In this document: in pieces, positions 2,887 to 29,201 of the stretch
Position numbering within the stretch: position 1 is the first letter of the stretch
Layout of the letters: every line of letters starts with the position of its first letter
Origin: a virus
Direction: 5' to 3' (one strand)
IMG/VR virus record: IMGVR_UViG_3300042330_000045
Coordinates: 1 to 29,201 of that record
Length of the DNA stretch: 29,201 nt
The notes under the pieces: model-generated
Told to the model about the DNA's origin: nothing
Seen by the model: only the letters and a program-made list of their open reading frames with translations
Database searches by the model: none
Position numbers and translations under genes: made by a program

Positions 2887-4701
2887 ATGGAAGATAATAA
2901 AAATAGTATAAGGTTTGTACAAATGAGCAATTACACTTCGCCTGTAGTTAAAGAGGTTAAGAGTAAGGAATGGGTAGAGTACGGAGAAAACAATTTATAC
3001 TTCGAGCATTTAATTGACCGATACAATGGAAGTCCTACTAACAATGCTTGTATAAACGGAATTAGTCAAATGATATTCGGTAGAGGTTTAGATGCTATTA
3101 ATTCTAGTATAGATGATTATACAGAGTTTAAAATGCTTATAAACGATGAGGATGTACAAAAGATTAGCTCAGACCTTAAATTATTAGGTAATGCTGCTAT
3201 ACAAGTAGTTTACAATATCGACCATACTAGAATATTAGAAGTTGAACACTTCCCTGTTGAAACATTACGAGCAGGTAAAGCTAATGATGAGGGAGTTATA
3301 GAACATTATTATTACTTCCCTGATTGGAGCAAAATAAAGAGAACTGACAAGCCTACTCCTATTTGTGCTTTTGGAACTAGTACCTCAGGAAACGAGATAT
3401 TATATATTAAACCTTATAAAGCAGGGTTTTATTACTATGCACCGCCTGACTACCAAGGAGGACTGCAATACTCTGAGCTTGAAGAGGAGATATCTAACTA
3501 TCATTTAAATAATATTCTTAATGGACTAGCACCTAGTATGTTAATTAACTTCAACAATGGTATTCCTGACGAAGATATGCAGGCTACTATTGAGGCTGAT
3601 GTACAAAGAAAATATGGAGGGACTAGTAATGCAGGTAGATTTATTCTAGCTTTTAATGATAAGCCTGAGGAGAAAGCAACTATAGAAGCTATACAGTTAT
3701 CTGATGCACATAATCAATATCAATTTTTGAGCGATGAGAGTATGCGTAAAATTATGATTTCTCACAGAGTAGTAAGTCCTTTACTTTTAGGTATTAAAGA
3801 CCAAACAGGTTTCGGTAATAATGCAGACGAATTAAAAACTGCTAGTATATTAATGGATAACGTAGTGATTAGACCATTTCAGGACTTAATTATTAAAGCT
3901 ATTGATAAAATTTTAGCATTTAATAAAGTTAATTTAAAACTATATTTTAAAACATTACAGCCATTAGAATTTATAGACCTTGAAAATGCTACTACTAAAG
4001 AGCAAATAGTAGAGGAGACAGGATATGATTTTAGCGAAAAAAAAAAAACTTGTAGCCATATAGATTTCTCTAGTGAATTAGACGATATCGTAGCTGAGAA
4101 ATTGATTTCTTTAGGAGAGTACCCTAGTGAAAAATGGTTATTGTTAGATGAGTACGAAGTAGATTATGATGGAGACGAGTTAGAGAATGAAATGCTATCT
4201 AAAGAATTTAGTAAACAAAACTTTGTAAAAACAGGTACAGCTAGACCTAATGCAAAAAGTGAACAAGATGACGTTATAGATGATATTAGATTTATTACTC
4301 GTTATGTATATGCAGGAGAAACAACTAGTAAGAGTAGAAAATTTTGTCAGAAAATGACAGATACAAAAAAAATATATCGTAAAGAAGATATAATAGCTAT
4401 GGCTAGTCAGGAAGTAAACCAAGTAAGCACAGATAAAAATGGAGTTCGTAAAGGTTTTGGACCGAATGGAAAACCTACATACGATATTTGGTTATACAAA
4501 GGAGGAGCTGCTTGCCACCATAGATGGAATAAACAGATTTATGTGTCTTTTGACAATGTAAATATAGACGTAAACAGTCCTAGAGCTAGACAAATAGCAG
4601 GACGAAAAGCAGAACAATTTGGATATGTAGTAAAAAATGATAAATTAGTTTCTACTAGACCTATTGATATGCCAAACAAAGGATTTTTAAACCCTAGATA
4701 A
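2887..4701 (+). CDS. Portal protein with C-terminal MuF-like/extra domain
   Basis: A 604-aa protein. Residues 1-370 look like a tailed-phage portal: an N-terminal wing, then VQRKYGGTSNAGRFI (239-253) and ISHRVVSPLLLGI (291-303), typical of the portal clip and stem region in Bacteroidota phages. A C-terminal domain (about 465-560) carries SRKFCQKM (483-490) and YDIWLYKGGAACHHRW (532-547). This Cys/His-containing module is found attached to portal or head-morphogenesis proteins in related phages, and resembles MuF-type domains in having a conserved Cys and late His residues. Its function there is unsettled. A 12-A run at 4037-4048 encodes Glu-Lys-Lys-Lys and is a possible slippage or sequencing-error site. 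The connector gene follows after 1 nt. Confidence 0.8.
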   Translation: MEDNKNSIRFVQMSNYTSPVVKEVKSKEWVEYGENNLYFEHLIDRYNGSPTNNACINGISQMIFGRGLDAINSSIDDYTEFKMLINDEDVQKISSDLKLLGNAAIQVVYNIDHTRILEVEHFPVETLRAGKANDEGVIEHYYYFPDWSKIKRTDKPTPICAFGTSTSGNEILYIKPYKAGFYYYAPPDYQGGLQYSELEEEISNYHLNNILNGLAPSMLINFNNGIPDEDMQATIEADVQRKYGGTSNAGRFILAFNDKPEEKATIEAIQLSDAHNQYQFLSDESMRKIMISHRVVSPLLLGIKDQTGFGNNADELKTASILMDNVVIRPFQDLIIKAIDKILAFNKVNLKLYFKTLQPLEFIDLENATTKEQIVEETGYDFSEKKKTCSHIDFSSELDDIVAEKLISLGEYPSEKWLLLDEYEVDYDGDELENEMLSKEFSKQNFVKTGTARPNAKSEQDDVIDDIRFITRYVYAGETTSKSRKFCQKMTDTKKIYRKEDIIAMASQEVNQVSTDKNGVRKGFGPNGKPTYDIWLYKGGAACHHRWNKQIYVSFDNVNIDVNSPRARQIAGRKAEQFGYVVKNDKLVSTRPIDMPNKGFLNPR

Positions 4702-4702
4702 G

Positions 4703-5200
4703 ATGATACTATTTGTAACCCCTGAGGACATAAAAAGAAATACTATAATAAATGGTAATGTAGACAATAATGAGTTCTTACAATTCGTTAAAATAGCTCA
4801 ACAGATACATATACAAAACTATTTAGGTACACAGTTATATGATAAGATAACTACAGATATTGAGAATGACGATCTAACTCCTGATTATGTATTTTTATTA
4901 AATGAATATGTACAACCTATGTTAATTAACTTTGCTATGGTAGATTATGTACCATTTGCAGGTGTAACTATTAAGAATGGAGGTATATTTAAGCATAGAA
5001 ACGATGTAGCAGAGATACCTACTAAAGAGGAGATAGATTTTATAACACAGAAATATAGAAACTTTGCTGAGTTTTATACTCGTAGATTTATTGATTATAT
5101 GGGAATATATGCTAGTCAGAAATACCCTGAGTATTTTACTAATTCAAATGCTGATATGTTCCCTGATACTAAAGCTAATTTTGTTGGATGGGTACTATAA
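4703..5200 (+). CDS. Head-tail connector/adaptor protein (DUF6712-like)
   Basis: A 165-aa, mainly helical protein with FLQFVKIAQQIHIQNYLGTQ (residues 26-45) followed by LTPDYVFLLNEYVQPMLINF and AEFYTRRFIDYM near the C-terminus. This pattern matches, from memory, the DUF6712 family found directly after portal genes in Bacteroidota phages and thought to play a head-tail adaptor (gp6-like) role. It starts 1 nt after the portal stop codon, the usual place for the first connector. The function is inferred from position and helical architecture. Confidence 0.7.
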   Translation: MILFVTPEDIKRNTIINGNVDNNEFLQFVKIAQQIHIQNYLGTQLYDKITTDIENDDLTPDYVFLLNEYVQPMLINFAMVDYVPFAGVTIKNGGIFKHRNDVAEIPTKEEIDFITQKYRNFAEFYTRRFIDYMGIYASQKYPEYFTNSNADMFPDTKANFVGWVL

Positions 5201-5503: not shown

Positions 5504-6708
5504 TGAGTTTATTTGAAAGTGCAAGTTTGGTAGTAACACCAAATGGAACAAAAGCGAGTAAGTTATACGCTATAAAGCCTACAAGTGGTGCAGGAGATTT
5601 AAGTGTTACAAGAGCAACAACAGCAACAAGAGTTAATAGTGCAGGTTTAATTGAAAGCGTAGCAAGTAACGTACCACGTTTAGACTACACAAACGGAAGT
5701 TGTCCGAGTATATTAGTAGAGCCACAAAGAACTAATCTTTTTACTTATAGCAATACTTTTACTGATGCAAGTTGGAATTTAGAAGATGCAACTATATCTG
5801 CAAATGTTGCTATTTCACCTGACGGAACACAAAACGCAAGTAAATTAGTTTCTAATGCAAATAATACAGACCATACTATTTATAAAAATGTTTTAACTTT
5901 AGTAGATAGAACTTTTAGCTGTTATGTAAAAGCTGATGGCTACAATTATGTATTTTTAGGTAATAATAATGGTTTAGCAAGTAATGGAGTTTTCTTTAAT
6001 TTAACAAATGGAACTATATCTCAAAATACCTCAACATTTACAGCGTCAATTAAAAGTGCTGGTAATGGTTGGTATAGATGTGAGATTAGTCAATCTTTAT
6101 GGTTGCTTCCTTACGCAATGATTTGTTTATCAAATAACGGAACAAGTTTTACTTTTGCAGGTAATGGAACAAGTGGCGTATTAATATATGGGGCACAAAA
6201 TGAAGCAGGCTCTTACGCTACTTCATACATACCTACTACTTCTGCAAGTGTAACACGTAACGCAGATGTAATTTCTAAAACAGGTATAAGTAGTTTAATA
6301 GGGCAAACAGAGGGGACTATTTTTTTGGATTTTGAAGCTAATGGTTTTGAAGCAAGTGATTTTTCTTTTATAAGTTTGACAGAAGGAACTACTAATATTA
6401 TTTATGTTGGTTCTTTTTCAAATATTTTACTTGTAAGAGTAGTTAATGGTGGAGTTATGTCTGTAAATATAAATTTAACATTTTCAACAAATACAAGATA
6501 TAAATTAGCATTTGCATACAAAAATAACGATTGTGTTTTATTCATTAATGGTGTAAATAGAGCCTCTGATACAAGTGCTTCAATTCCAGCTACAAGTAAA
6601 TTGACGTTTAATGATTTCGGTTTAGGAACAAGTTATGATGTTAATAATACTTTACTTTACAAAACACGTTTAACAAATGCTGAATTAGCAGAACTAACAA
6701 CTATCTAA
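5503..6708 (+). CDS. Receptor-binding/fibre protein with lectin-like domains
   Basis: A 401-aa protein rich in Asn, Ser, Thr and Gly. The N-terminal 80 residues include TRATTATRVNSAGLIE and ILVEPQRTNLFTYSN, a virion-attachment type segment shared by many phage fibres. Residues about 85-235 look like a beta-sandwich carbohydrate-binding domain (YVKADGYNYVFLG, GNGWYRCEIS), and residues about 255-401 like a concanavalin/LamG-type sandwich (GTIFLDFEA, RYKLAFAYKNNDCVLFINGV). This combination fits host-surface glycan recognition. Codon use (many ACA, GCA, AGT, GGA) differs from the neighbouring head genes, and such genes are commonly exchanged, so recent acquisition is plausible. Confidence 0.75.
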   Translation: MSLFESASLVVTPNGTKASKLYAIKPTSGAGDLSVTRATTATRVNSAGLIESVASNVPRLDYTNGSCPSILVEPQRTNLFTYSNTFTDASWNLEDATISANVAISPDGTQNASKLVSNANNTDHTIYKNVLTLVDRTFSCYVKADGYNYVFLGNNNGLASNGVFFNLTNGTISQNTSTFTASIKSAGNGWYRCEISQSLWLLPYAMICLSNNGTSFTFAGNGTSGVLIYGAQNEAGSYATSYIPTTSASVTRNADVISKTGISSLIGQTEGTIFLDFEANGFEASDFSFISLTEGTTNIIYVGSFSNILLVRVVNGGVMSVNINLTFSTNTRYKLAFAYKNNDCVLFINGVNRASDTSASIPATSKLTFNDFGLGTSYDVNNTLLYKTRLTNAELAELTTI

Positions 6709-6709
6709 A

Positions 6710-7018
6710 ATGTACATATATAAATTAAAATACACAGACAAAGAAACTGCAATAGCTAATTTATTAGTAAAGAAAGTTTATGTAGAAGTAGAAAACCTTA
6801 ACAAAGAAATTACTTTAGCTTACGGACAAGGTATACAAGCTGTTATAGAAATTGGTTTAATCGTTTTAGAGAATGGTAGTTACGATGATAAATTTAATGT
6901 AATTACCGAACCTGTTTACGCTGATGGTTACCATTATGACGTTATGAGTGAAAATAAAATTGATTTTGGTAGTAATGAAATACAAGTAAATAACCCTAAA
7001 CATATATTTGCTTCGTAA
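6710..7018 (+). CDS. Fibre-associated accessory protein
   Basis: A 102-aa soluble protein starting 1 nt after the fibre gene and overlapping the holin-like gene by one base. It contains AVIEIGLIVLENGSYDDKFN and DGYHYDVMSENKIDFGSNEI, a combination I recall from small genes directly downstream of fibre genes in Bacteroidota phages. It may be a fibre chaperone or part of the receptor-binding tip. No enzymatic motif is visible. The function is inferred from position only. Confidence 0.7.
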   Translation: MYIYKLKYTDKETAIANLLVKKVYVEVENLNKEITLAYGQGIQAVIEIGLIVLENGSYDDKFNVITEPVYADGYHYDVMSENKIDFGSNEIQVNNPKHIFAS

Positions 7019-7212
7019 TGACTAGACAGAAAATAGATTTATTTTTAAATAAGTGGTTAAGTAGAAAACTAACGGTATTTGTAATAGCTTCAGTAGGTTT
7101 ATTCTTTGGAGTTATTACTTCTACTGATTGGGTAATAGTTTCTACTTCTTATATAACTATAGAGGGAGTTACGAATATTGTTGAACGTTTAATGAAAAGT
7201 AAAAATGTCTAA
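7018..7212 (+). CDS. Small membrane protein, candidate holin or lysis regulator
   Basis: A 64-aa protein with a short basic N-terminus (to K18), a hydrophobic segment at about 19-33 (TVFVIASVGLFFGVI), a second apolar stretch at about 38-48 and a charged C-terminus. It starts the lysis cassette: it is followed by another one-TM protein, then the M15 endolysin and spanin-like genes. Either membrane protein could be the holin, with the other an antiholin or accessory. It overlaps its neighbours by 1 and 8 nt, indicating translational coupling. Confidence 0.7.
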   Translation: MTRQKIDLFLNKWLSRKLTVFVIASVGLFFGVITSTDWVIVSTSYITIEGVTNIVERLMKSKNV

Positions 7213-7372
7213 TAACGATTTAAAATTGTATTTTTTAAATACTATAACAATGGCTTTAAGTTTCTCTAACATAGAAAACGCTTTAAAAATAATTCTATTA
7301 ATTGCCTCTATATTTTATACTGTATTAAAAATAATAGAAACTTATAAAAATAAAAAAGATGAGAATAAGTAA
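7205..7372 (+). CDS. Putative holin (single-TM, 55 aa)
   Basis: A 55-aa protein: a polar N-terminus, FSNIENALKIILLIASIFYT (residues 20-39) forming one membrane helix at about 26-45, and a highly basic C-terminus (ETYKNKKDENK). It resembles from memory the short holin-like proteins of Bacteroidota phages, which carry an IE-x-ALKI-x-LL motif before a SIxYT segment. It overlaps the endolysin start by 14 nt. Position, size and topology make it the better of the two holin candidates. Confidence 0.7.
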   Translation: MSNNDLKLYFLNTITMALSFSNIENALKIILLIASIFYTVLKIIETYKNKKDENK

Positions 7373-7811
7373 ACATTTTACCTTAGCTGAGTTTTGCAAT
7401 AGTGCAGCTGCTAAAAGATACGGAATTAGCAATATAGCTGATGATAAAAGTATTAAGAATTTAACAATACTAGCAGAGACAATATTAGAGCCAATTAGAG
7501 AACATTTCGAGAAACCTATACATATTACCTCAGGATATAGAAGTCCTGCTTTAAATAAAAAAATAGGTGGAGCACATAATTCGCAACATTTAATAGGTCA
7601 GGCAGTGGATATTGATAATGACAATACAGAAGTTAGTAACTCAGAGATATTTAATTTTATTAAAGACAATTTAAAGTTCGACCAACTTATATGGGAGTTC
7701 GGAAATGATGAGAACCCTGCTTGGGTTCACGTATCTTTTTCTAGCAAACCACGTAAACAAATATTGAAAGCTTACAAGAATGGTAGTATTACAGTTTATA
7801 AAAAAATATAA
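7359..7811 (+). CDS. Endolysin, zinc peptidase M15 family
   Basis: A 150-aa peptidase of the M15 (Peptidase_M15_3-like) family, expected to cleave peptide cross-bridges of peptidoglycan. Seen directly: SGYRSPALN (58-66), the zinc-ligand motif SQHLIGQAVDID with H77 and D84, and the third ligand H124 in AWVHVSF. All key residues are present and the length is typical of the single-domain enzymes. There is no signal peptide, so release would depend on the holin encoded just upstream. It overlaps both neighbouring lysis genes. Confidence 0.92.
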   Translation: MRISKHFTLAEFCNSAAAKRYGISNIADDKSIKNLTILAETILEPIREHFEKPIHITSGYRSPALNKKIGGAHNSQHLIGQAVDIDNDNTEVSNSEIFNFIKDNLKFDQLIWEFGNDENPAWVHVSFSSKPRKQILKAYKNGSITVYKKI

Positions 7812-8103
7812 ATGGATGATAGCAGTAATTTTAACGATTATTGCTTTTGTCGTTTATAAGGACTTTAAAAATAGAAGTAGTATAAATACCCTAAAAACTA
7901 ATAATAATCGCTTAGAAGTAAAGAAAACAGCCTTAAAAGATAGTTTAAAGATTATAATTAAAACACAGACTAAGTATATTAATAAAATTAAGGTAATTAA
8001 AGAAAAAGAATATGAGCAGATTAAAGTTATTGATACTTATAGTAATGCTGAGCTTGAAAGGTTTTTCACAAATAGATACGACAAAGATAGTATTAAGCAG
8101 TAA
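7780..8103 (+). CDS. Putative inner-membrane spanin (Rz-like)
   Basis: A 107-aa protein with a basic N-terminus (KKYKW), one membrane helix (residues about 13-25, MIAVILTIIAFVV) and a long charged helical domain, the Rz architecture of an anchored periplasmic coiled coil. It overlaps the endolysin by 32 nt; an in-frame ATG at 7816 would remove the basic residues before the helix, so 7780 is preferred. The downstream spanin partner begins inside this gene in another frame. Assignment rests on topology and context, since spanins diverge strongly. Confidence 0.7.
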   Translation: MVVLQFIKKYKWMIAVILTIIAFVVYKDFKNRSSINTLKTNNNRLEVKKTALKDSLKIIIKTQTKYINKIKVIKEKEYEQIKVIDTYSNAELERFFTNRYDKDSIKQ

Positions 8104-17015: not shown

Positions 17016-17114
17016 ATGGAAGAGTATAGTAATTGTTGCGGAGCAGAACCACACCACATTTGGAGTGATTTATGTAGTAGTTGTTTAGAGCATTGTAATT
17101 TTGAAACCGAATAA
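17016..17114 (+). CDS. Tiny Cys/His zinc-ribbon-like protein
   Basis: A 32-aa peptide with NCCGAEPHHIWSDLCSSCLE (residues 6-25) and a final EHC: six Cys and three His, a miniature zinc ribbon. Similar tiny NCCGA...CSxCxEHC proteins are widespread in phages and bacteria (from memory), without known function. It starts 2 nt after DUF3310 and ends 4 nt before the preferred ParB-like start. Confidence 0.7.
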   Translation: MEEYSNCCGAEPHHIWSDLCSSCLEHCNFETE

Positions 17115-17118
17115 TATT

Positions 17119-17697
17119 ATGATAGTAGATATTAATAAAATTAAGGGTAATACTAATAACCCTAGAATAATCAAAGATGATAAGTTTAAAAAGTTAGTAA
17201 AATCAATTAAGGAGTTCCCTGAGATGTTAGAACTTCGACCTATTGTAGTAGACGAGGATATGATAGTGCTAGGTGGAAATATGAGATTAAAAGCTTGTAT
17301 AGAGGCAGGACTTAAAGAAGTACATATAACTGTAGCTAGTAACTTAACCGAAGAGCAAAAGAAAGAGTTTATAGTTAAGGACAACGTAGGCTTTGGAGAG
17401 TGGGATTGGGATATGCTAGCTAATGAATGGGATAATAACAACTTAATTGAATGGGGTATTGATGTTTGGACTCAAGATATGCTAGTGAATAATATGAATG
17501 AATTAGATATTGATATTGAACAAGAGTTTGACCCAATTGGTACATCATCAGGAATACAAAGAGTAGTCTTTTTATTTGATGGCTCAGAAGAAGCAGAAAG
17601 TTGGCTAAAACAACATCCTACTTTGCCATTAAAAAAACAAAATATGGCTTGGCAAATTGACTTAACTAGTGGTAAATTTTTAGAAAATGCTCAATAA
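17119..17697 (+). CDS. ParB/sulfiredoxin-domain protein
   Basis: A 192-aa protein from the ATG at 17119; an in-frame TTG at 17101 inside the tiny Cys gene is less likely. Residues 1-75 form a ParB N-terminal-like domain: NTNNPRII (11-18), LRPIVVDEDMIVLGGNMRLK (39-58) with the GGNMR motif, and AGLKEVHITV. Residues 83-112 (FIVKDNVGFGEWDWDMLANE) are the usual follow-on segment. A separate small C-terminal unit (149-187, FLFDGSEEAESWLKQH) looks ferredoxin-like. In phages such proteins often accompany DNA-modification enzymes; here the next gene is a TAGT glycosyltransferase, overlapping by 11 nt. It could guide or prime modification. No methylase domain is present. Confidence 0.8.
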   Translation: MIVDINKIKGNTNNPRIIKDDKFKKLVKSIKEFPEMLELRPIVVDEDMIVLGGNMRLKACIEAGLKEVHITVASNLTEEQKKEFIVKDNVGFGEWDWDMLANEWDNNNLIEWGIDVWTQDMLVNNMNELDIDIEQEFDPIGTSSGIQRVVFLFDGSEEAESWLKQHPTLPLKKQNMAWQIDLTSGKFLENAQ

Positions 17698-18451
17698 ATA
17701 TCCTATTTACATAATTTCAAAAGGGAGATACGAAAAAACACTTACAGCTGATAACTTAGAAAATAGTGGTTTAAATTATTTAATTGCAGTAGAGCCACAA
17801 GAATATGATAACTATTGTAAAAAGCTAGGAGAAAAAAGAGTTTTAAAATTACCGTTTTCTAATTTAGGATTAGGTAGTTATCCAGCTAGAAATTTTTGTT
17901 GGGAACACGCAAAGAGTATAGGTGCTAAGTATCATTGGCTTTTTGATGATAATATTCTTTTTTGGATGAAATGGATAAACGGAAAAAGAAGAAAAATAGA
18001 GAGTTTAAATGAAGCTCTTATTTATGTTGAAAGGTTTGTTGATATGCATAATATTACAATAGGAGGGTTTGAAGAGCCAAATTTTGTAGTTAAACCACCT
18101 AAAAAGGCATTTAAAATTAATTGCCATATTTATTCTGATATGTTAATTAAAAATGATATACCTTACAGATGGAGGCTTAAGTATAATGAAGATGTAGACC
18201 TTTGTTTACAAGTGTTACATAACGGAGGTAGTACAGCAAGTTGCGTTTATTATATGGCTAATAAAGTATCTACAGCAGATAAAATGAAGGGAGGAAACCA
18301 AACAGAACTTTATAAAGGAAATGCACCTGAAAAAAATTTACTAAAAGCTAAAATGTTAGAAGCAGTTTGGCCTCAATATGCAAAGACGGTTATAAGGTTT
18401 AATAGACATCATCATTTAGTTGATTGGAGAGTATTTAAAAAAAAAAAATAA
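17687..18451 (+). CDS. TET-associated glycosyltransferase (TAGT/GREB1-like)
   Basis: A 254-aa protein matching the TAGT family, glycosyltransferases found in phages with hypermodified DNA. Motifs in order: PIYIISKGR (6-14), VEPQEY (35-40), LPFSNLGLGSYPARN (55-69), WLFDDNI (84-90) with the DD pair D87/D88 as nucleotide-sugar/metal site, YNEDVDLCLQ (166-175), GGNQTELY (202-209) and RFNRHHH (237-243). All expected blocks are present, so it should be active. Known members act on hydroxymethylated bases made by TET/JBP enzymes; no TET/JBP, methylase or hydroxymethylase is visible here, so the acceptor is unknown. It overlaps the ParB-like gene by 11 nt. Codon use from about 17540 to 18451 looks different from the terminase genes, suggesting a transferred unit. 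Confidence 0.88.
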   Translation: MLNKYPIYIISKGRYEKTLTADNLENSGLNYLIAVEPQEYDNYCKKLGEKRVLKLPFSNLGLGSYPARNFCWEHAKSIGAKYHWLFDDNILFWMKWINGKRRKIESLNEALIYVERFVDMHNITIGGFEEPNFVVKPPKKAFKINCHIYSDMLIKNDIPYRWRLKYNEDVDLCLQVLHNGGSTASCVYYMANKVSTADKMKGGNQTELYKGNAPEKNLLKAKMLEAVWPQYAKTVIRFNRHHHLVDWRVFKKKK

Positions 18452-18484: not shown

Positions 18485-18835
18485 ATGAACCACCAAAATA
18501 CGACACTTAAAAAAGCAATGATTGAAGCTTTAGAGAAAAGTTTGTCAGTTGTTACTACAGCTTGTAAGCAAGTAGGTATAAATAGAAGTACACATTACGA
18601 ATGGTTAAAGAATGATGAGGAATATGCTAAGGAAGTTAAGAACCTAGAGAATATAGTTTTAGATTTTGCAGAGAGCCAATTACATAAACAAATTCTAGAT
18701 GGAAGTACAACAGCTACTATCTTTTTATTAAAGACAAAAGGCAAGAGTAGAGGATATATTGAGAGACAAGAAATAGTTACAGATGCAGATAACTTTTTTA
18801 AAGTAGAGATACTAGATGACGAACATAAAGACTAA
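18485..18835 (+). CDS. Terminase small subunit
   Basis: A 116-aa protein with an N-terminal helix-turn-helix (ALEKSLSVVTTACKQVGINR then STHYEWLKNDEEYA), the homeodomain-like fold of many small terminases, and the KQILDGSTTATIFLLKTKGK (69-88) oligomerisation-type segment common in these proteins. It should bind the packaging site and hand DNA to the large subunit, whose gene overlaps its 3' end by 20 nt. The 33-nt gap upstream (18452-18484) shows no promoter. Confidence 0.85.
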   Translation: MNHQNTTLKKAMIEALEKSLSVVTTACKQVGINRSTHYEWLKNDEEYAKEVKNLENIVLDFAESQLHKQILDGSTTATIFLLKTKGKSRGYIERQEIVTDADNFFKVEILDDEHKD

Positions 18836-19970
18836 TGTAGTTTTTAAGCACCTTAATAACTCGAATAAGAGAATAACTATTGAGCAGGGTGGGACAAGGT
18901 CAGGAAAGACCTATAATATCCTTATATGGCTTATTTTCGGTTACTGTTCAAATAACAGAGGAAAGACTATTACTGTAGCTAGGAAAACATTCCCTAGTTT
19001 ACGGACTTCTGCTATGCGAGACTTTTTCGAGATATTAAGAACCTATGACTTATACCGAGAAGAGTATCACAATAAAAGTAGTTCCGAGTACAACCTTAAC
19101 GGAAACCTAATAGAGTTTATATCTTTAGACCAACCTACAAAAGTAAGAGGTCGTAAAAGAGATTTACTTTATATTAATGAAGCTAACGAGTTATATTGGG
19201 AGGATTGGCAACAATTAGTATTTAGGACTAAAGATAAAATAATAATTGATTATAACCCGTCTGACGAGTTCCATTGGATATATGATAAGGTTAAGACTAG
19301 AGATGATGCAGACTTTTATATAACTACTTATAAGGATAACCCATTCCTGCCTGATGAGATTAAAAAAGAGATAGAAAGGTTAAGAGATACTGACGAGAAT
19401 TATTGGCAAGTATATGGACTAGGACAAACAGGTCAGAGTAAAGCATTAATCTTTAGAATACACGAAATAAAAGAAATACCTAAGGAGGCAAAGTTTTTAG
19501 GTTATGGAATGGACTTTGGGTTTACTAACGATCCAACTACATTATCAGCAGTCTATATGAGTGGAGATAATTTATACTTTGATGAGTTAATATATAAAAC
19601 AGGTTTAACAAACCCTGATATAGTTAAGCAGTTTGAGAGTTTAGGAATAGATAGAAGAGCTGAGATATTTGCAGACGATGCAGAGCCAAAAAGTATAGAG
19701 GAAATATACCGAATGGGGTGGAATATAAAAGAAGCTAAAAAGAAAGAAATAAACTTAGGTATCGATATAATGAAGAGATACAAATTACATTGTACTAGTA
19801 GCTCTGTTAATATGATTAAGGAATTTAAAAACTATAAATGGGTAGAGGATAAGAACGGTAATATACTAAATAAGCCACAAGATATGTTCAACCACACAAT
19901 AGATGGTATTAGATATCTGTTATACAATAAGATAAGCAGACCTAATTACGGAAAGTATGCTATAAGATAG
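18816..19970 (+). CDS. Terminase large subunit
   Basis: A 384-aa packaging motor. ATPase domain: Walker A GGTRSGKT (25-32), Walker B region DLLYINEANE (116-125) with the catalytic E, and coupling motif IDYNPSDEFHW (144-154). RNase H-like nuclease domain: MDFGFTNDPT (232-241) with D233, FADDAEPKSIEE (285-296) with D287/D288, and HTIDGIRYLL (360-369) with D363. All catalytic positions are present; the length is at the short end for the family. It lies next to the small subunit and, unusually, is followed by tail genes rather than by portal and capsid genes. Confidence 0.93.
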   Translation: MTNIKTNVVFKHLNNSNKRITIEQGGTRSGKTYNILIWLIFGYCSNNRGKTITVARKTFPSLRTSAMRDFFEILRTYDLYREEYHNKSSSEYNLNGNLIEFISLDQPTKVRGRKRDLLYINEANELYWEDWQQLVFRTKDKIIIDYNPSDEFHWIYDKVKTRDDADFYITTYKDNPFLPDEIKKEIERLRDTDENYWQVYGLGQTGQSKALIFRIHEIKEIPKEAKFLGYGMDFGFTNDPTTLSAVYMSGDNLYFDELIYKTGLTNPDIVKQFESLGIDRRAEIFADDAEPKSIEEIYRMGWNIKEAKKKEINLGIDIMKRYKLHCTSSSVNMIKEFKNYKWVEDKNGNILNKPQDMFNHTIDGIRYLLYNKISRPNYGKYAIR

Positions 19971-28297: not shown

Positions 28298-28912
28298 ATG
28301 GAAGTAATAGAATTAATAATAGACGAAAACCAAGAGCTTAGCGGTGTAGATGCAATTAGTATTGTAGAGAGACCTGCTATTGAGGAAAACTTTATAGCTC
28401 TATCTGAACAAAAAGAGTTTAAGTTTGAGAGTATAGATGATGAGAAACGTATTTTAATAGGTGCCTTGTTAATACCTGATAAGAAAATAATTAGAAGAGA
28501 TGGCAATAGAGAGTATTATGTTTATTTTTCTAAAAAGACGATCAGGCAAGCTATGGAATTGTACGCTAAAAGAGGATATCAGAACAATGCTACTTTTGAA
28601 CATAGAGAAGACGTTACAGGACTAACACTAGTAGAGAGTTGGATAAAAGAAGATAATAACAATGATAAGTCTAACATATATGGACTAGATTTGCCTATAG
28701 GTAGTTGGGTAGGTACTGTAAAAGTAAACAACGACGTTATTTGGAGAGATTATGTTAAAACAGGTATCGTTAAAGGTTTCTCAATAGAGGGATATTTTGC
28801 AGACTTAAAACAGAATACAGAAGAGGCAGAATTATCAGAAGAGATAGAGGCAGGTTTACAATTATTAAGCGTAAAAGCTGAGTTATTAAAATATATAGTA
28901 AATGAAAGATAA
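28298..28912 (+). CDS. Prohead serine protease, XkdF-like
   Basis: A 204-aa protein of the XkdF-like phage serine protease family (Peptidase_S78_2 type), which processes scaffold and capsid during head maturation. Visible features: SIVERPAIEENFIALSE near the N-terminus, IGALLIPDKKIIRRD (54-68), the probable catalytic His in NATFEHRE (97-104, H102), and the catalytic Ser in VKGFSIEGYF (158-167, S162) after IGSWVGTVKVNNDVIW. The acidic tail may be an assembly signal. On the circle it directly precedes the scaffold-like and capsid genes, as expected. Confidence 0.87.
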   Translation: MEVIELIIDENQELSGVDAISIVERPAIEENFIALSEQKEFKFESIDDEKRILIGALLIPDKKIIRRDGNREYYVYFSKKTIRQAMELYAKRGYQNNATFEHREDVTGLTLVESWIKEDNNNDKSNIYGLDLPIGSWVGTVKVNNDVIWRDYVKTGIVKGFSIEGYFADLKQNTEEAELSEEIEAGLQLLSVKAELLKYIVNER

Positions 28913-29074: not shown

Positions 29075-29201
29075 TAAAAATCGTTATATTAAAAAAAAAA
29101 GATGAGTACAATTAAAAAAGAAATTTTCAGTAGAATTGTAGAGTTAAATACTAGACAAGAAAAAAGAGTAGAATTAGCTGTTAATGATGATTTGCAAAAA
29201 G
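29075..29201. repeat. Terminal direct repeat, copy 2 (circular overlap)
   Basis: Identical to 1-127. It includes the CGTTATA motif (29082-29088) and the first 100 bases of the 122-aa gene (start at 29102), which is incomplete here only because the window ends. It should be counted once. Confidence 0.95.

Follow-up and report, generated by a model that had tools for sequence, protein, structure and literature searches.

Described systems with TAGT or ParB genes

The TAGT family of glycosyltransferases was reportedly defined by Iyer et al. in 2013. The beta-glucosyl-HMC-alpha-glucosyltransferase (ggt) of phages T6 and T2 belongs to the same Pfam family, PF20691, as the TAGT of the window (the whole 29,201-base stretch of viral DNA analysed here), and its D-D, E-D and most other motif residues match. 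Ggt adds a second sugar (PMC13216743). The dCMP hydroxymethylase gene adjoins ggt in T6, whereas the window has no PF00303 match; no ParB is annotated within the T6 stretch examined, whereas the window TAGT has a ParB gene upstream. In the tree, a very long branch separates ggt from TAGTs of the window type.

Solitary TAGTs are common; in one survey of 753 phage genomes, 288 were without the T-even alpha and beta transferases (PMC13216743). The window type lies near the solitary TAGTs of Aeromonas phage Aeh1, Tenacibaculum phage PTm1 and related phages in the tree. Aeh1 and PTm1 have no TET. Unlike the window, they are large genomes with thymidylate-synthase-family genes, and their TAGT lies inside a longer protein with no ParB annotated adjacent. 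Nonlabens phage P12024L (Inhavirus) carries a TET/JBP-TAGT-methylase cassette. The window's structural genes (capsid, portal and tail), as well as L160, resemble P12024L, which carries its cassette instead of ParB-TAGT. P12024L holds TET and a methylase but no ParB homologue of the window type, the window holds ParB but neither TET nor methylase, and the two TAGTs are 26.8% identical.

ParB domains fused to methylases or near CmoX have been reported in phages, their role undescribed (PMC12704722, PMC12783734); for the fusions with DNA methylases the role is stated to be unknown (PMC12783734). These ParBs have nearly the same head as the window protein and occupy the same slot before the terminase. 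The window differs in that the partner is a glycosyltransferase in trans and goes with its own tail type. The text of the PNAS survey makes no mention of glycosyltransferases. We found no literature on ParB with hypermodification or with glycosyltransferases; ParB neighbours may be mentioned by Iyer et al. (2013).

Gene slot in the window

A 127-bp direct repeat lies at both ends of the record (nt 1–127 and 29075–29201). The genome is therefore closed, as the earlier sequence-only reading had stated. The gene order is ParB-like, TAGT and then both terminase subunits, all on the plus strand. The small subunit (nt 18485–18835; PHROG match, E=5.5e-7) and the large subunit (nt 18816–19970; PF04466, E=7e-22) form the context of the slot. 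The ParB gene ends with its stop at nt 17697 and TAGT begins at nt 17687, confirming the proposed overlap of 11 nt (nt 17687–17697, plus strand), from which translational coupling of the two genes is likely. Judged by gene content and order, the window holds a phage ParB-linked DNA-modification cassette, in which ParB lies next to a DNA-modifying-type enzyme before the terminase.

The TAGT glycosyltransferase

The plus-strand gene at nt 17687–18451 encodes a 254-aa protein with a GT-A fold. It matches PF20691 with E=4.9e-38 and 131.5 bits, against a curated cut-off of 27.5, and phrog_842 with E=1.1e-34. The AlphaFold2 model has a pLDDT of 91.3, and its best structural matches are GT-A enzymes, including TarP and SunS. 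Among 42 diverse TAGTs, including T6 ggt, residues R14, Y43, R68, N69, D87, D88, E168, D169, G202 and G203 show at least 95% conservation, and the window protein has all of them. D87-D88-N89 (nt 17945–17953, plus strand) is a putative DXD-type metal/nucleotide-sugar site, with D87 present in 95% and D88 in 100% of the 42 sequences. E168-D169 (nt 18188–18193, plus strand) is the presumed catalytic base region, with 95% and 100%, respectively. The full TAGT motif set that had been recognised from the letters alone is thus present, and the profile search, which might have revealed a missing active site, found it intact.

Between the TAGT of the window and that of locus L001, 12, 6 and 78 differences fall at codon positions 1, 2 and 3 (dN 0.03, dS 0.93), showing that the gene is under strong purifying selection. 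By these sequence measures nt 17687–18451 encodes a genuine TAGT glycosyltransferase, and its activity on DNA is predicted. TAGT is split into two ORFs in L007, L012 and L013 (176+64 aa; 94+103 aa), which represent broken genes or sequencing errors.

The ParB-like protein

The upstream gene starts from an ATG at nt 17119 and ends at nt 17697 (plus strand), encoding 192 residues; an alternative TTG start at nt 17101 is possible. The Pfam ParB_N score of 24.1 bits is slightly below the cut-off of 26.3. PHROG families of ParB type match with E down to about 1e-25 to 1e-27, and the profile of the protein matches ParB structure 4umk in the PDB with E=4e-8. The predicted head, about residues 1–120 (nt 17119–17478, plus strand), matches ParB-CTP structures in Foldseek. 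In the alignment the head has Box II, GGNxR, with R56 invariant, and the domain is common to the ParBs of other DNA-modifying enzymes. By sequence and predicted structure the protein has the ParB/Srx (ParB-CTPase) fold. NTP binding or hydrolysis has been shown for other members of the ParB/Srx family (PMC12704722), and by analogy the window protein may have the same capacity. No ParA-type ATPase, the ParABS partner, was found among the window ORFs scanned.

The C-terminal tail (nt 17494–17694, plus strand) is specific to TAGT loci and is presumed to be a docking unit, on the evidence of the tail profile and the correlation described below. The sequence-only reading had described a ParB with an extra ferredoxin-like unit at this end. 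The distinct, conserved tail was borne out, but the ferredoxin fold was unconfirmed and was set aside, with the predicted model at low confidence in this part (about 48–82).

Spread of the ParB-TAGT pair

Many of the records compared are incomplete fragments. In nearly all of the 80 viral loci found through TAGT, ParB immediately precedes TAGT or is parted from it by no more than a further sugar enzyme, and the terminase genes are near the pair. ParB is immediately upstream of TAGT in 10 of 10 loci from bacterial genomes, which belong to Bacteroidota, Bacillota, Pseudomonadota, Actinomycetota and Ignavibacteriota. These ten came from an alignment-based TAGT profile; the window protein alone as query matched none. 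The cultured Lactobacillus phages phi jlb1 and c5 also have the ParB-TAGT order near the terminase. On this distribution the pair is old and widespread, across unrelated phages and five phyla. In L019 (nt 1619–2741), just upstream of ParB-TAGT, genes that by eye resemble a hexapeptide-repeat acyltransferase and GT2 would again belong to sugar chemistry.

Partners of ParB in other loci

A census of 316 loci fetched via ParB, of which about 80 had first been found via TAGT and in which some contigs are counted twice, gave as partners TAGT in 124, Mom in 76, a ParB-fused methylase in 60, an ABC-ATPase/GNAT protein in 25 and TET in 22, with a handful of other genes. The labels derive from phmmer seeds, with Pfam confirmation for representatives; a representative Mom partner matches PF25680 with E=8e-35. 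All partner classes use the slot before the terminase. The classes are DNA-modification enzymes, an assignment made by inference for the ABC-GNAT type, so that ParB is next to or fused to a DNA-modification-type enzyme in nearly all 316 loci. In 60 of them ParB and the methylase are one polypeptide, and the published reports of ParB with methylases and CmoX fit the census.

Several partners merit separate mention. In the 25 loci of the ABC-GNAT class, the protein after ParB joins an ABC-type ATPase to a GNAT acetyltransferase domain, for instance at L092 nt 1633–2709 and L139 nt 3674–4744; it is possibly an undescribed ATP-dependent base-acylating DNA modifier. To the eye, the partner at L304 nt 4033–5058 resembles a C5-cytosine methylase that has the SPPC motif of CmoX, and it may methylate or carboxymethylate. 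A 307-aa protein with no Pfam match occupies the partner slot at L126 nt 1143–2066 (also L280, the same contig) and is a candidate new DNA-modifying enzyme. A DpdA-like partner read by eye in L086 and L114 was discarded, Pfam giving no support for L086.

Matching of ParB tails to their partners

The ParB heads, about 120 residues long, are more than 90% identical in many pairs of loci with unrelated partners, while the tails differ. At head identity above 0.9, the mean tail identity is 0.86 within a partner subfamily and 0.29, the background level, between subfamilies. The profile of the window-type tail finds 71 ParBs, of which 70 have TAGT downstream and the other, L057, is in a locus that also holds a TAGT; it finds none in the other classes. 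The remaining tail types are equally class-specific, each profile matching its own class only. The L098-type tail is recognisable with its TAGT type over four phyla, where the heads are far more divergent, and L014 and L016 have a different head yet the same tail and TAGT type. Within the window type, the divergence of the tail has a partial correlation of 0.85 with that of TAGT (0 of 500 permutations), against –0.03 for the head, a co-variation much of which could arise from recombination linkage between adjacent sequences alone. In L372 the head and the tail are in separate adjoining ORFs (nt 172–465 and 466–945), which is a natural split near the domain boundary or an assembly error.

Loci with TET separate the tail's neighbour from its match. 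There the tail stays matched to TET, and the middle gene varies (TAGT, a kinase or an unrelated 301-aa gene). For L116 versus L144 the identities are 0.96 for the tail, 0.95 for TET and 0.21 for the middle gene, and for L306 versus L308 they are 0.95, 0.90 and 0.22. These swaps, though only two or so independent events, argue against a purely positional linkage. In L144, ParB, a protein that by eye resembles a P-loop kinase, and TET stand in a row (nt 6555–7037 and 7024–7824); both the ParB tail and the TET of this locus have nearly identical counterparts in L116 (ParB-TAGT-TET), which suggests an exchange of the decorating step. In window-type loci GT32, epimerase, second glycosyltransferase and FkbM genes are gained or lost while the tail remains matched to TAGT. 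The match to TAGT persists even where GT32 or a second glycosyltransferase intervenes between the ParB and TAGT genes.

A proposed role for the pair

The preferred reading, to which we give a probability of about two in three, is that ParB is an adaptor loading a first-acting TAGT onto phage DNA for sugar transfer. The head, an NTP-binding-type ParB/Srx fold common to many phage DNA-modification systems, would engage DNA, and the tail would dock TAGT physically. Before packaging, TAGT would then use a nucleotide-sugar as donor to glycosylate the phage DNA, and the sugar would probably hide this DNA from restriction. TAGT would take the first-acting position held by a methylase, Mom or TET in the sister systems, and would not be a decorator that needs a phage enzyme to hydroxylate the base beforehand. 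The suggestion that the two genes form a compact DNA-hypermodification module with a guiding ParB gains strong support from comparison, that is, from the conserved pair, the tie of this ParB family to bona fide DNA-modifying enzymes and the partner-specific tail.

The order of action follows from the tails. If the tail follows the first-acting enzyme (methylase, Mom or TET), that enzyme in the window type would be TAGT. The survey of co-occurring enzymes that had been suggested earlier found TET with 9 of 9 TAGTs of two other subfamilies and with 0 of 88 of the window type. Among the 88 window-type loci, 20 contain sugar genes (GT32, epimerase, second glycosyltransferase, FkbM), which loci of the Mom, methylase, TET or GNAT class all lack. 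The extra sugar genes together with the lack of TET suggest that the window-type TAGT may start a glycan that others extend. T6 TAGT acts on glucosylated hydroxymethylcytosine (PMC13216743), so a first-acting TAGT is without precedent.

The source of the acceptor

The closest competitor, with a substantial probability that falls short of even, shares ParB and DNA with the preferred reading and differs on the first actor. It holds that TAGT sugars a base hydroxylated by an unrecognised enzyme, which would be of the host or a novel phage enzyme varying by phage. The acceptors of all well-studied DNA glycosyltransferases are 5-hydroxymethyl- or 5-hydroxypyrimidines (PMC13216743, PMC13390438). Two other TAGT subfamilies in this slot come with TET, and P12024L, with window-like structural genes, has TET-TAGT-methylase. 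Large relatives such as Aeh1 carry thymidylate-synthase-family genes, and C5 or N6/N4 methylases appear sporadically in some ParB-TAGT records.

The searches for such an enzyme stand against it. PF12851 (TET/JBP), PF00303, PF00145 and PF01555 had zero matches in the whole window genome, while the positive controls (P12024L, L091, L094 and cellular genomes) were detected, those for PF12851 being P12024L, L091 and L094. No thymidylate synthase/dCMP hydroxymethylase, C5 methylase or N6/N4 methylase was found in the window by profile searches, and the remaining window ORFs, run against Pfam and PHROGs, matched no acceptor-enzyme family. The sequence-only reading, which saw no TET/JBP, DNA methylase or pyrimidine hydroxymethylase in the genome and proposed a profile search of the small ORFs for dioxygenase, methylase or thymidylate-synthase folds, was correct on this point. 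A match of phrog_1530, labelled as a DNA methyltransferase, at nt 28298–28909 was rejected; the label is misleading, and the product is an XkdF-like prohead protease.

The same holds among relatives. TET is absent from 44 relatives with the window-type TAGT and from the cultured phages c5 and phi jlb1, and no PF00303 protein was found in any small ParB-TAGT phage examined. Clustering of the proteins of 20 ParB-TAGT records and P12024L placed TAGT in 21 of 21 and ParB in 20, P12024L being the exception; the other widely shared families are packaging, structural (terminase, capsid, tail) or minor ones, and the idea of a conserved acceptor-making gene elsewhere in these phages was rejected on this ground. 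Inserts of about 215–320 aa among ParB, TAGT and terminase, considered as the missing TET or methylase, proved by sequence and Pfam to be GT32, a sugar epimerase, a weak second glycosyltransferase and an FkbM methyltransferase. Aeh1 belongs to the sister clade; the published list of phages with the T4 gene 42 hydroxymethylase does not include it (PMC2993671), and its base has been entered as unknown (PMC8056088).

At the level of sequence, then, no conserved phage enzyme able to make the acceptor is found in ParB-TAGT phages. Three sources had been offered at the outset: the host, a small phage gene or a different acceptor. The small gene is disfavoured because no further non-packaging, non-structural gene is common to all ParB-TAGT phages. 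A host-made acceptor looks unlikely given hosts in five phyla, and a different acceptor is the best remaining option. A bolder version of the preferred reading, which we consider doubtful, is that the ParB-guided TAGT glycosylates a canonical base directly, for example at an exocyclic amine, much as the Mom and amino-methylases of this slot modify canonical bases. DNA would then be sugared in one step without hydroxylation, and the ParB head, through its interchangeable tails, would serve phage DNA-modifying enzymes in general as a loading platform.

Alternatives to a ParB-guided DNA enzyme

ParB and TAGT might have independent jobs and travel together only as occupants of a recombination hotspot before the terminase. 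Phages exchange genes at such slots, and tail and enzyme would stay linked simply by being adjacent and by recombination falling within the conserved head. This is improbable, however, as nearly every such ParB is beside or fused to a DNA-modifying enzyme, in 60 loci as a single polypeptide, and as each tail type keeps to its partner class, in one case across phyla. Moreover, the tail follows TET and not the adjacent swapped gene in the TET loci, and still follows TAGT past an inserted GT32 or second glycosyltransferase.

Less probable still is that the target of TAGT is a protein in place of DNA, be it capsid, tail, terminase or ParB itself. In favour of a protein target, the gene adjoins packaging and structural genes, the best structural matches include the protein/teichoic-acid glycosyltransferases SunS and TarP, and certain loci also contain GT32, epimerase and FkbM genes of the kind that typically build glycans. 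Against it, the ParB slot otherwise holds DNA methylases, Mom and TET, related TAGT loci are partnered with TET, and the T6 TAGT acts on DNA (PMC13216743).

Implications

With the ParB-TAGT family, the acceptor question of the solitary TAGTs comes down to a gene pair carried by a 29-kb phage and also by Lactobacillus phages in culture, and the cultured relatives c5 and phi jlb1 make the preferred reading, ParB as the adaptor of a first-acting TAGT, testable. It also offers a specific hypothesis for these ParBs, in which a single type of head engages DNA and can bear exchangeable tails, every tail fitting its own modifying enzyme. If true, this would explain how phages swap the chemistry of their DNA, and a new way of making glycosylated DNA could come to light.
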